Shown here one piece after another: positions 8,821-16,476 of a stretch of 64,000 bases of DNA. Each line of letters begins with the position of its first letter. The first letter of the stretch is position 1. The notes beneath the pieces are model-generated. The model had not been told where the DNA came from. It searched no databases and saw only the letters and a program-made list of their open reading frames with translations. Made by a program: the position numbers and the translations under genes. The DNA is from Microbulbifer guangxiensis (lineage in GTDB: Bacteria; Pseudomonadota; Gammaproteobacteria; Pseudomonadales; Cellvibrionaceae), in assembly GCF_021729075.1 (NCBI RefSeq), contig NZ_JAJSAQ010000002.1, forward strand, positions 310,001 through 374,000, written 5' to 3'.

Positions 8821-9705
8821 ATGCCCCTGGAATTACCCGCCCCTGCCAAACTGAACCTGTTCCTGCGCATTCTTGGCCGCCGCCCCGATGGTTATCACGA
8901 ACTGCAGACCCTGTTTCAGCTGCTCGATTTCGGCGATTCGCTCCAGTTTGAACTTCGCGATGATAGTGAGCTGTCTGTCGAAGCGCCCGGGCTGGATGTG
9001 CCGCAGCAGGACAACCTGATTTTCCGCGCGGCCAGATTGCTCCAGGACATTAGCGGCACACAAAGGGGCGCTCATATTCGCCTGGAAAAGAAACTCCCCG
9101 CGGGCGGCGGTATCGGCGGCGGCAGCAGCGATGCGGCCACCGCGCTGCTGGGCCTGAACCATCTGTGGCAATGCCACCTGTCCCTCAGCGAGCTCGCATC
9201 CCTGGGACGACAGCTGGGCGCGGATGTGCCGGTGTTCGTCGCCGGCCACACGGCTCTGGCAGAGGGTATCGGCGAGCACCTGGTCCCGGTGCAGACCGGG
9301 CCCCGTCACTACCTGATACTGGTTCCCGAATGCCATGTCAGCACCGCGGCGATATTCCGCCACCCGCGTTTGACAAGAGATTCCCCGGCAATTAAATTAG
9401 CGCACCTTCGCGACAGGGTGCTGGACAGCGAATGGCTGCGAAAGCACGCTGGCAATGATTGCCAGCCGCTGGTCGAGGAGCTCTACCCGGAGATCCGGGT
9501 CGCTCGGGAGTGGCTGCAGCAGCATGCCGACGCACAGCTGACCGGCACCGGCGCCTGCGTTTTTGCCGCCTTCCACTCTGAAGCGGAAGCGCAAAGAGTC
9601 TTCGAGCAGAGGCCAGCGGGATGGCGCGGCTTCATCGCCGCAGGCGTCGACAGATCGCCAACCCACAAGGCGCTCGCGAAAACCATTTCCGCCAGCCGGG
9701 AGTGA
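8821..9705 (+). CDS. ispE: 4-diphosphocytidyl-2-C-methyl-D-erythritol kinase
   Basis: A 294-residue GHMP-family kinase that phosphorylates CDP-methylerythritol in the non-mevalonate isoprenoid pathway. The N-terminal PAKLNLFLRILGRRPDGYHE segment is diagnostic, and the ATP-binding glycine-rich loop LPAGGGIGGGSSDAATAL lies at about 96-113. A C-terminal GTGACVFA motif closes the GHMP fold. It is 109 bp behind lolB and only 14 bp before tRNA-Gln, so the tRNA may be cotranscribed. Confidence 0.96.
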   Translation: MPLELPAPAKLNLFLRILGRRPDGYHELQTLFQLLDFGDSLQFELRDDSELSVEAPGLDVPQQDNLIFRAARLLQDISGTQRGAHIRLEKKLPAGGGIGGGSSDAATALLGLNHLWQCHLSLSELASLGRQLGADVPVFVAGHTALAEGIGEHLVPVQTGPRHYLILVPECHVSTAAIFRHPRLTRDSPAIKLAHLRDRVLDSEWLRKHAGNDCQPLVEELYPEIRVAREWLQQHADAQLTGTGACVFAAFHSEAEAQRVFEQRPAGWRGFIAAGVDRSPTHKALAKTISASRE

Positions 9706-9719
9706 AACAAAGAATTTAC

Positions 9720-9794
9720 TGGGGTGTAGCCAAGCGGTAAGGCAGCGGGTTTTGATCCCGTCATGCGTAGGTTCGAATCCTACCACCCCAGCCA
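9720..9794 (+). tRNA. tRNA-Gln (anticodon TTG)
   Basis: 75 nt ending in an encoded CCA. The acceptor stem TGGGGTG pairs with CACCCCA (the first T-A pair is typical of tRNA-Gln). The anticodon loop at 9750-9756 carries TTG at 9752-9754, and the T arm TAGGTTCGAATCCTA is intact. The gene is identical to the copy at 15033-15107 and sits 14 bp after ispE. Confidence 0.97.
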
Positions 9795-10231
9795 TATTTC
9801 GCTGACTGCGTTAATGCAGATCGGATCTCCGCAACTCGACAGGTTCGAGCCGACAAACTTGCGAAGCGAGTTTGGGCGCCGGAGTAGAAGTAAACGGACG
9901 GCGGGGCGCAGCCCCGAGCACGAAGTGCGAGTCCACCGGCCGGGGCCGCCGGAGACCAGCGAGCCGCTAGGCGACGCTAATCCTACCACCCCAGCCATTT
10001 TTCTCGTCCCCACCCTCTCCCGGGTAAGGGAAACGATCCAGCCCAATCGGGCCGGAAGCGGCCATCACTGGGCCGCAACAGATTATGAACCGGGTAATTA
10101 CCCGCCCCCTTCGCGGCCGCCTGTGCCGCCACAGCAAAAGGTGACGCAATCGCGCGCTACAAGCTTACTCACAGACAGGCATCTACACTTTTCACGTCCC
10201 CAGGAACTCAACAGAACCAAAGGTATTCGCA
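9795..10231. other. tRNA-Gln to prs intergenic region with tRNA-tail copy and hairpins
   Basis: No gene seen. At 9979-9998 a 20-nt stretch repeats the tRNA-Gln 3' end (9776-9795) exactly, 203 bp downstream. Between them are several strong small hairpins, including CAAACTTGC/GCGAGTTTG with a GAA loop (near 9855-9875), GGGGC/GCCCC and GCAC/GTGC. The last 45 bp before the tail copy resemble the repeat unit behind the second tRNA-Gln at 15.1-15.3 kb. The prs promoter should lie in the right half. Confidence 0.7.
9979..9998 (+). repeat. Direct repeat of the tRNA-Gln 3' end
   Basis: The 20 bases are identical to the last 19 bases of tRNA-Gln plus one following base (9776-9795). They are preceded by GCGACGCTA, matching the GCGACGCTC that precedes the equivalent tail copy in the second tRNA-Gln locus. 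No integrase is present nearby, so an attachment site is possible but unsupported. Confidence 0.85.
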
Positions 10232-13881: not shown

Positions 13882-14796
13882 ATGCATCCTTCCAACTGGA
13901 AAATCGGCCTGCCGCTGGCCCTGGTCACCGCATTCATGTGGGCACTGCTTCCCATTGCCCTCAAGGGGCTGCTGGACTCCATGAGCGCCAGCACCGCTAC
14001 CTGGTACCGCTTTGTCGGCGCTGCTGTGCTGGCCGGCACTTACTATGGATGGACCCGCCAGCTGAACCTGCGCCAGCTGTTCGAGCGGGGCATGCTGCCG
14101 CTGACCATCATCGCCGTGGTTGGCCTGCTGACGAATTACCTGACCTACGCGTCCGGCCTGCACTTCATCACCGCCGGCGCCGCGCAGATCGTCATCCAGC
14201 TGGCGCCCCTGCTGCTGTTGACCTCCAGCGTTATCTGGCTGGGTGAGCACTTCTCGTCACGGCAATGGCTCGGGGTCGCCATGGTGGTGGCCGGCCTGCC
14301 GTTATTCTTCAACCAGCGGCTGACGGAACTGGTCAGTGGTGCCAACAACAGCTACCTGCTGGGGCTCGGCCTGATCGTGGTGGCGGCAGTGGGCTGGGCC
14401 GTGTACGGTTTTTTCCAGAAGAAGATTCTTGGCCGGGCCAAGCCCCAGGATCTGCTGGTGCTGATTTATATCGCCGGCACCCTGTGTTTCCTGCCCATGG
14501 CGGATCCGCTTTCGGCCCTGGAGCTCGACTGGCTCGGCTGGGGCCTGCTGGTCTTCCTGACCGCCAATACCCTGATCGCCTACGGTGCCTTCACCAAGGC
14601 CCTTGCCCACTGGGAGGCCTCCCGGGTCAGCGCTACCCTGGCTCTGGTGCCCCTGCTCACCCTGGGCATGGGAACACTGATCGGTGCTGCGTGGCCGGGC
14701 TATATTGAAGTGGAGCCGATGAACTGGATCAGCTGGCTGGGCGCCGCAGCAGTGGCCAGCGGCTCACTGTTTGCGGCCATCGGCAGGGGGCGCTAG
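13882..14796 (+). CDS. DMT-superfamily transporter (two EamA domains)
   Basis: A 304-residue inner-membrane protein with about ten transmembrane helices arranged as two EamA halves (about 8-140 and 155-300). The N-terminal half contains LVTAFMWALLPIALKGLLDS and the WYRF motif common in EamA exporters. Family members export amino acids, purines or other metabolites; the substrate is not evident. The longer open frame starting at 13738 overlaps ychF; ATG 13882, directly before the hydrophobic start, is preferred. Confidence 0.88.
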   Translation: MHPSNWKIGLPLALVTAFMWALLPIALKGLLDSMSASTATWYRFVGAAVLAGTYYGWTRQLNLRQLFERGMLPLTIIAVVGLLTNYLTYASGLHFITAGAAQIVIQLAPLLLLTSSVIWLGEHFSSRQWLGVAMVVAGLPLFFNQRLTELVSGANNSYLLGLGLIVVAAVGWAVYGFFQKKILGRAKPQDLLVLIYIAGTLCFLPMADPLSALELDWLGWGLLVFLTANTLIAYGAFTKALAHWEASRVSATLALVPLLTLGMGTLIGAAWPGYIEVEPMNWISWLGAAAVASGSLFAAIGRGR

Positions 14797-14859
14797 CAGC
14801 GCGCGATGGCGCGTGCGGACAATTGCGCTAACTCACTGAAAATTCAGCAAAAAAGGGGG

Positions 14860-14888
14860 TTGACAGCCCCATCCCGGAGTCCCATAAT
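14860..14888 (+). promoter_or_regulatory. Sigma-70 promoter of the tRNA-Met/tRNA-Gln unit
   Basis: A perfect -35 TTGACA (14860-14865), a 17-bp spacer and -10 CATAAT (14883-14888), about 30 bp before tRNA-Met. The GC-rich discriminator after the -10 box (GCGCCC) is the pattern expected of stringently controlled stable-RNA promoters. Confidence 0.85.
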
Positions 14889-14918
14889 TCGCGCCCTCGG
14901 TTAGCCGAGAACGTCAGT

Positions 14919-14995
<77 letters not shown>

Positions 14996-15032
14996 TTTTC
15001 CTCCTGCGAGAGGCTTCTCGCAGCGCCTTTAC

Positions 15033-15107
15033 TGGGGTGTAGCCAAGCGGTAAGGCAGCGGGTTTTGATCCCGTCATGCGTAGGTTCGAATCCTACCACC
15101 CCAGCCA
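15033..15107 (+). tRNA. tRNA-Gln (anticodon TTG), second copy
   Basis: 75 nt identical to the tRNA-Gln at 9720-9794, including TTTAC immediately upstream. It lies 37 bp behind tRNA-Met and is probably cotranscribed with it. Its 3' end is the first of a series of tail repeats. Confidence 0.97.
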
Positions 15108-15316
15108 TTTTCTTCCCTGACCCAGAAGCTCCCCTTAAAGCTATTCAGTGAAATGAAACTGAAGGGATCAGCGAGCCCGACAGGGCGACGCTCATCCTAC
15201 CACCCCAGTCATTTTCCTCCCTGATCCAGAAGCTCCCCCTTAAAGCTATTCAGTGAAATGAAACTGAAGGGATCAGCGAGTCTGACGGGGCGATGCTCAA
15301 CCGGCACCCCCAGCCA
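15091..15316 (+). repeat. Tandem ~104-bp repeats, each starting with a copy of the tRNA-Gln 3' end
   Basis: Two near-identical units (15091-15194 and 15195-about 15299), followed by a degenerate third tail (to 15316). Each begins with the last 17 bases of tRNA-Gln (exact in the tRNA, one mismatch in copy B, several in copy C). Each continues through a shared spacer that includes the imperfect hairpin TTCAGT-GAAATGAA-ACTGAA and ends in GGCGA(C/T)GCTCA. The architecture resembles the E. coli tyrT locus, where repeats carry the 3' end of tRNA-Tyr. No gene is encoded. Confidence 0.88.
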
Positions 15317-15444
15317 TTTCCTTATGTGCCACGGCTAAGCCAGCAGAGCCCGAGCAGCCGACCAGCGGAAACCAGTCAGCCCACGATGGACAGAGACGGA
15401 GAATTGGGAGCAGGACCCGGGGAAGATCCGGACCTCGGCCAGCC

Positions 15445-16476
15445 TCAGGTTGCCTGAGGCTGGACACCATTCAGGGAGGTCGCGGGAGCTGCTTGCGGAC
15501 GCGGCCGCCGCCGGCCGATGGCCCGCAGCCATTCGAAGCCCAGCAGCCCCAGCAGCACCGCAGCAGCAACGAGCACGGCACCAGCCGGGCCGATGGCCTG
15601 CCACTCCACGTAACAGGTCCACAGCAGCTGCACGACACAGAGGCAGGCGACGACCAGCAATGTGGGCTTGCGACCGATCAGGGCCACCACAAATACCCCC
15701 AGGGGCGCCCCCAGGGCCACTACCGGTGCCGCCGCCATCCAGTTGCCAAATACCTGAGGATGCCAGTCCCCGGAAAGGCTCTTCACCGCCACACCAATCA
15801 CAGAGCTGAACGCCATGATGACCACCGAGGTGGGGATCGCGACTTTCAGATCCACACGGCACATCAGCACCAGTACTGCGTAGATCAGCATATCGATGCC
15901 CACCCCCGTGGTCGCCACCGCGGACACACCGGCGGCGGCACCGAGCCACAGGCCAAGGCGAAAGTCCCGCCGTGGCTCACTGTGGGGGCAGGCATTGTGG
16001 GCGGTGATTTCATTGAGGCGGTACAGGTGCAGGATGCCGAAACTTCCCCAGAGCACCGCAAAGACCAGCTTGATCCAGAGATCCGGCATCGCCGGGGCCA
16101 CAAAAAGGATGCCGAGAGGGGTACCGAACAGGGAGCCGAGCATGGCGCCCCGCAGCATTGGCCAGGCCAGTGTCTGCCGACGGGCCAGAATAAACAGGCT
16201 GGCGCTCACCATACCGATGGACTGCACCGCAAAACTGAAATCCCGGCCAAGGCTGGCGGGCATATCGAACAGCAGCACCAGCACGGGAAACCCGACAGTG
16301 CCGCCGCCCATAGGGGTGGACCCGGCGGCGTAGCTGCCGATAGCCATCGACAACGCCATGGGCCAGTGGGCTTTAGCCAACGCCCAGTAATCCAGCCCGA
16401 AGGCCAGTAGCAGCCACGCGGCGTAGAACACCACAAGGCCGGCCAACCAGAGTCGCAGGTGCTTGAGCACGGCCAT
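15445..16476 (-). CDS. TauE/SafE-family membrane permease
   Basis: A 343-residue polytopic protein with about eight or nine hydrophobic helices and the family pattern of two TauE halves, including GSYAAGSTPMGGGTVGFPVL near the first helices and SAVATTGVGIDM in the second half. Family members move sulfite, sulfonates or other organic anions across the inner membrane. The start is ATG 16476, where AGGTGA lies 7 nt upstream; the longer frame to 16590 would run into the halogenase remnant. It is on the same strand as the decayed halogenase fragment. Confidence 0.85.
   Translation of the reverse strand: MAVLKHLRLWLAGLVVFYAAWLLLAFGLDYWALAKAHWPMALSMAIGSYAAGSTPMGGGTVGFPVLVLLFDMPASLGRDFSFAVQSIGMVSASLFILARRQTLAWPMLRGAMLGSLFGTPLGILFVAPAMPDLWIKLVFAVLWGSFGILHLYRLNEITAHNACPHSEPRRDFRLGLWLGAAAGVSAVATTGVGIDMLIYAVLVLMCRVDLKVAIPTSVVIMAFSSVIGVAVKSLSGDWHPQVFGNWMAAAPVVALGAPLGVFVVALIGRKPTLLVVACLCVVQLLWTCYVEWQAIGPAGAVLVAAAVLLGLLGFEWLRAIGRRRPRPQAAPATSLNGVQPQAT

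Follow-up and report, generated by a model that had tools for sequence, protein, structure and literature searches.

Tandem repeats that carry the tail of a tRNA gene have been known at the Escherichia coli tyrT locus for decades, without an agreed role. The corresponding RtT RNA (Rfam RF00391; E. coli tyrT/tyrV, RttR) lies behind a tRNA gene in tandem units, each of which has hairpins followed by a copy of the last 18-19 nt of that tRNA, starting from (A)ATCC. In E. coli K-12, the order at tyrT/tyrV is a reversed tail with GGATGAGAA or GGGTGAGAA, a half T-arm (GGTTCG), hairpins, and then AATCC and the tail. Four units at these loci match RF00391, with scores of 132.9-137.5 bits. The RttR RNA annotated there covers a single unit, its 3' end falling on the CCA of the first tail copy. 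RNA lying downstream of a tRNA in its precursor is also a property of the 3' external transcribed spacers of tRNA operons, of which 3'ETS-leuZ is an example; to our knowledge, a tail copy has not been described for such spacers.

A further likeness is to the REP and BIME elements, which are short, intergenic, imperfect palindromes present in many copies; RttR itself has been listed as REP-containing (PMC12306157). Unlike these elements, the copies described here lie behind tRNA genes or with a tRNA-type tail, and in the orientation of the tRNA. A Salmonella comparison lists rtT as a 175-bp VNTR (PMC2658671), RtT is recorded as lost together with one tRNA-Tyr gene in a classical E. coli mutant (PMC12584984) and as expressed in Thioalkalivibrio (PMC8092127), and covariation within RtT, along with a tandem GA motif, is reported (PMC7657543). 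Several host tRNAs for RtT are already known (PMC4986893, a paper that also cites work from 1991 on how RtT is released from the tyrT transcript and on its connection with the stringent response). Excerpts of the literature on rtT, RtT, tyrT and Microbulbifer yielded no account of tail copies at several tRNAs, of tails that change with their tRNA, or of the Microbulbifer module set out below.

The same plan is found at several tRNAs and at tmRNA in many families, with tails that track their tRNA and with exact empty sites in close relatives. This turns an old curiosity into a comparative and testable question, namely whether selection on an RNA or recombination maintains the tail copy.

Two repeat units behind a tRNA-Gln gene

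The window considered here is a stretch of 64,000 nt from the genome of Microbulbifer guangxiensis, and all of its features named below lie on the plus strand. A tRNA-Met (CAT) gene (14919-14995) is the first of a pair with a tRNA-Gln (TTG) gene (15033-15107), whose 18-nt tail, ATCCTACCACCCCAGCCA, occupies 15090-15107. Behind it lie unit A (15108-15211, 104 bp), made up of a spacer, a hairpin and a tail copy, and unit B (15212-15316, 105 bp), which is identical to unit A in 92/105 aligned columns (88%). They are detected as direct repeats of 84 nt (88% identity, spacing 105) and 50 nt (90% identity, spacing 104). The tail copy that ends unit A (15194-15211) is identical to the tRNA-Gln tail at 17/18 positions, its CCA having become TCA; that ending unit B (15299-15316) is identical at 13/18 (five mismatches) and retains CCA. 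A search for the tail on the reverse complement of the sequence downstream of tRNA-Gln gave no matches. The repeats reported in a preliminary description of this DNA are real, each with its tail copy; what was taken there for a decayed third copy is just the tail closing unit B, and there is no third unit body. Protein coding across the units was considered and rejected, as the spacings of 104 and 105 break the reading frame.

The RNA of unit A has a predicted fold of -31.3 kcal/mol (z -3.38), which none of 200 shuffles equalled. Its hairpin (15165-15197) can be written GGAT-C-AGCG-A-GCCC-gaca-GGGC-GA-CGCT-C-ATCC, with a core pattern that is common to the genus and an outer GGAT/ATCC stem, recognised by eye, in which the final ATCC is part of the tail copy. 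The hairpin that precedes the tail in RtT-type elements (CCCGAAGGGCGA type) is present in unit A as GCCCGACAGGGCGA. The half T-arm GGTTCGA, with which the RtT hairpin domain starts, is absent from both units, and no reversed tail was seen in either, only GGAT/ATCC being left in unit A (by eye).

A sigma-70-like promoter, TTGACA-17-CATAAT (14860-14888), lies 30 nt upstream of tRNA-Met. It is a consensus match only (11/12), and is the sole one in 14780-15520 (shuffle mean 0.1). A simple scan of the same interval found no intrinsic terminator, which is weak evidence because the shuffles lead one to expect just 0.8 chance matches. As none was found between the genes and the units, it is quite likely that the units are co-transcribed with tRNA-Met and tRNA-Gln.

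Relationship to RtT RNA

The units differ from E. coli RtT in their host (tRNA-Gln against tRNA-Tyr), in their length (104/105 against 178 bp) and in lacking the last RtT hairpin as well as the reversed tail and the T-loop half. RF00391 has no match in the window at its gathering cut-off (45 bits), and none at E<=5 in 14880-15480. A covariance model, R1, was built from 21 RtT elements outside Microbulbifer (alignment A1, 21/24 elements; L364 was left out for another start, L365 for masked bases and L367 for a shifted end), and it gives no match in 15108-15316. Since units A and B match neither model, the case for their RtT descent rests on intermediates and relatives, from which such descent appears likely.

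The first intermediate is in the window itself. The preliminary description confined the feature to 15091-15316; the units are indeed there, and the phenomenon goes further. A second tRNA-Gln (TTG) gene (9720-9794), identical to the copy at 15033-15107, is followed by an RtT-type element (9847-9934), the best R1 match in the 64 kb (27.8 bits, E 1.6e-4; the next best, 16314-16393, has E 0.26). Further hairpins (GGAGACC-AGCGAGCC..GGCGACGCTA, 9935-9979) separate this from an exact 18-nt copy of the tail (9980-9997), which is preceded by the same hairpin type. RF00391 has no match at E<=5 in 9600-10150. The element at 9847-9997 is fuller than units A and B, and the next gene on that strand lies downstream of it.

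In the whole M. guangxiensis genome, R1 gave eight matches at E<=0.012, all of them behind a tRNA gene (seven) or the end of a tmRNA gene (one). The hosts are tRNA-Asp, -Arg-ACG, -Gln and -Phe and the tmRNA end, and two weaker matches lie near contig ends. A clear tail copy is not universal among these elements, that of Phe being partial and none having been found for the Asp element. A direct search for tail copies (up to 4/19 mismatches, within 600 nt, outside neighbouring tRNAs) found them at 4/68 called tRNA genes in the stretches from this genome: both tRNA-Gln(TTG), one tRNA-Met (two copies) and tRNA-Ala(GGC). Other matches were the tails of neighbouring tRNA genes, and the reverse-complement control gave none. 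The Ala (L200) and Met (L198) copies come without the common hairpin module, and the Ala locus retains nearly the whole of a second T-arm. At L337 (G000:C3, minus strand, about 175100-175300), an RtT-type element follows the 3' end of a tmRNA gene whose body is missing; the site may be the distal end of an island that was inserted in ssrA.

Among the relatives, the Rfam RtT model matches at E<=1 in 22/48 genomes of the genus, none of which (0/48) reaches the cut-off. Six of the 41 listed genus matches (E 1.3e-5 to 0.8) overlie the module found by pattern search, and at 15 loci inspected, a called tmRNA lay beside the match in seven and tRNA-Ser(GCT) in two, no gene being called in six. Across the class, 81/369 genomes (M. 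guangxiensis included) match at E<=0.01, 23 of them over the cut-off; among 14 control genomes, E. coli alone matched. Of the best 30 class loci, 24 have a tRNA-Gln, -Tyr or -Ser gene or a tmRNA gene with a tail copy of up to two mismatches behind it. An alternative count at the same 30 loci gave 22 called upstream genes and 20 tail copies (up to four mismatches), 16 of them exact; some of the eight missing upstream genes belong to loci cut at contig ends, where the position rule fails, and the count of 24/30 was made without that rule. RtT-type elements lie directly behind tRNA or tmRNA genes, comprise several hairpins and mostly end in a copy of the 18-nt tail of that gene.

The likeness to tyrT/rtT drawn in the preliminary description therefore extends further than was claimed, in the genus-wide module, in the sub-cut-off RtT matches over that module in relatives and in the plan shared with E. 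coli rtT. Its statement that the sequence differs from tyrT is correct in part; the hairpin preceding the tail is common to both, reading CCAGCGAG..CCCGAAGGGCGAAGC in E. coli and CCAGCGAGCCCGAAGGGCGAAGC at the Microbulbifer Arg loci.

The reversed tail, which is one part of the RtT closing stem, is less uniform. In 24 elements outside Microbulbifer the cognate tail scored 14.6 against 10.3 for other tails, and ranked first in only 13/24. For 16 non-Gln Microbulbifer elements the values were 11.3 and 9.6, with the cognate first in only two; this is weaker than it appeared by eye, and the row is uncertain, as the region rule took a later or wrong GTTCGA in some elements (e.g. L215). In 11 Microbulbifer Gln elements, units A and B excluded, there was no preference for the cognate tail (7.8 vs 8.2).

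A hairpin-plus-tail module in Microbulbifer

In the motif common to these loci, AGCGAGCC-loop-GGCGANGCT leads into NATCC and then the tail. When 84,980 species in a collection were scanned for this motif, 51 stretches were returned, 30 from Microbulbifer, one from Marinimicrobium and 20 from other taxa. A tRNA-Gln or tRNA-Arg gene lies at most 1.5 kb upstream in 29/31 of the Microbulbifer and Marinimicrobium stretches, the other two being at a contig start or stretch edge; the same distance held neither gene in any of the 20 stretches from other taxa. With a looser pattern, the module is present in 36/48 genomes of the genus, which bears out the conservation among relatives whose absence was half of the refuting condition in the preliminary description, and in 2/96 other genomes of the family. 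The reversed pattern had no matches in all 144 genomes; a still looser pattern gave one control match in 48 genomes.

Of 93 distinct module contexts (110-120 bases each, identical copies counted once and those of fewer than 110 bases skipped), 87 have a same-strand tRNA gene within 1 kb upstream. The hosts are Arg-CCG (35), Gln (26), Ser-GGA (10), Ser-TGA (10), Ser-GCT (4), Pro (1) and Arg-ACG (1). The remaining six comprise four with a tRNA 1.5-9.3 kb upstream, cargo or an array lying between, and two with a tRNA-type tail, one following a tRNA-Arg-like tail in a place without a tRNA call, the other near a contig start with a Gln tail. A minus-strand RNA from the module was also considered, as raw energy favoured the reverse strand in 46/63 cases and the sense strand in 15/63. 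This reading was dropped because dinucleotide shuffles removed the advantage of the reverse strand (mean z -0.88 for sense, -0.33 for reverse).

Tail tracking, gain and loss

The 48 genomes contain 94 Gln loci with five tail types, and a strict pattern finds a first tail copy at 27 of them and none at the other 67. At 23/27 this copy equals the tail of its own tRNA, against 6.0 on average and 16 at most in 20,000 permutations; the four that differ, unit A among them, are each one base off. On a tree of 46 genomes, two of the 48 being omitted for missing genes, the Gln tail changes at least seven times, and at least four times among carriers. The Gln tail copy follows its tRNA through evolution.

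On the same tree, the presence of a tail copy (up to three mismatches) changes seven times at one Gln locus and nine times at the other, and tail copies have thus often been gained or lost. Empty and occupied sites were compared in six genome pairs. Two pairs aligned without gaps (319 and 339 nt) once the tail copy at the occupied site was matched to the only tail at the empty one, with a difference of exactly 122 and 99 bp; one of the other four was gapped (G024/G027, Gln1) and three were uninformative. A terminator follows the tail in both clean pairs. In these two pairs of relatives, the element and one tail are present or absent exactly at the tail, and the exact flanks indicate gain or loss as a piece, between tRNA and terminator.

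Two close relatives inform the history of units A and B. At the same locus M. flavimaris (G012) has three units, the first of which is a full module including the half T-arm; G004 has one decayed unit without a tail copy (by eye). Units A and B share 92/105 positions with each other, and the best match of either to a G012 unit is 83/105, so the units were doubled, or homogenised, recently in this lineage.

Origin and possible role of the units

On balance, units A and B are probably RtT-type elements, reduced and partly worn, that are transcribed by read-through from the tRNA promoter and were doubled recently. The tail copy would originally have given the downstream RNA a tRNA-like 3' end, to be cut by the tRNA 3' processing machinery, as is suggested by the annotated E. 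coli RttR ending on the tail CCA. In full elements, the reversed tail may pair with the direct copy and so mimic the acceptor and T stems of the same tRNA, and an RNA of this kind could compete with its tRNA or report on it. Such mimicry has probably been reduced or lost in units A and B, which no longer have the reversed tail or the T-loop half and whose first CCA is mutated, and it seems rather unlikely that the units are still functional in this genome. Tandem copies may be made and kept alike by recombination or slippage between the 18-bp tails. More tentatively, RtT might be a class of RNA elements linked to tRNA and tmRNA genes across Gammaproteobacteria, rather than a peculiarity of one E. 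coli operon. Its members would mimic the acceptor and T stems of the host tRNA and re-copy its tail when this changes, serving as decoys or sensors in tRNA 3' processing or charging that are specific for the cognate tRNA; the Microbulbifer Gln units would then be a reduced branch.

It is conceivable, if doubtful, that the elements are relics at the DNA level only and have no RNA function. Replication slippage, together with template switching that involves the T-arm, the terminator palindrome and the tail copies, would then build hairpin-rich repeats behind tRNA genes and homogenise them. By eye, the Ala, Phe and Ser loci read tail, terminator, reversed tail, half T-arm, tail, which is the geometry of a small tandem inversion duplication, and the E. 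coli Tyr locus has this geometry minus the terminator. Presence and absence exact at the 18-bp tails also fits such an origin, as does the position of several elements beyond terminators. At the Arg, Ser, Asp, Phe and tmRNA loci the element comes after a terminator-like hairpin (by eye), making co-transcription doubtful there; at the Gln loci of some relatives, a terminator comes after the tail copy. Local copying would not, however, give connector sequences that are common to different tRNAs and to distant families, and an rtT RNA is annotated in E. coli. The 21 elements from outside Microbulbifer have a consensus fold far below column shuffles on both strands, and fold better on the sense strand, where G-U pairs are found (alifold -10.35 sense vs -7.81 reverse; z -13.4 for the tRNA sense vs -8.2 for the reverse, 60 shuffles). 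Covariation alone is not decisive here, because template switching also keeps palindromes matched. The Microbulbifer hairpin could also form a tandem GA motif (AGC-GA-..-GA-GCT, by eye).

The tail of a tRNA gene is the kind of stretch used by tyrosine integrases, and its resemblance to such a target raises the idea that the tail copies are attR scars, attachment sites left over from integrative elements that used the tRNA 3' end. The integrase-like islands found between tRNA-Ser(TGA) and the module in two genomes (translations read) would fit this origin, except that they resemble later insertions. It is rendered improbable by the same hairpins standing before unrelated tails at many tRNAs, where an integrase would keep its own core sequence, and by the tail copies of units A and B being just 104 and 105 bp apart, with no room for a gene and no integrase gene or element DNA between them. 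A chance tandem duplication at a single locus, unrelated to rtT, would account for the failure of units A and B to match the RtT models, and is very improbable, being contradicted by the recurrence across the genus, by the way tails track their tRNA and by a close relative that has the full module at this locus.

Islands and terminators at other module loci

In the four contexts with a distant tRNA, the translations of the cargo between tRNA and module include tyrosine-integrase-like genes in two cases and a transposase-like gene in one, neither being noticed in the fourth; an attC-like cassette array was considered for this cargo and set aside. The two integrase-like islands (L333, G037:C5:6000-17000; L334, G041:C15:37000-48000) lie between tRNA-Ser(TGA) and the module and have a tail copy at the far end. 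In another genome (L280, G022:C27:338000-356500), about 16 kb of extra DNA lies between the two tRNA-Gln genes, and its translations include integrase-like and resolvase-like genes. At three loci behind tRNA-Ser or tRNA-Arg (L193, L069 and L230), the terminator palindromes have about 20 bp per arm and include the tRNA CCA or come close to it; that of L230 extends into the reversed tail copy.
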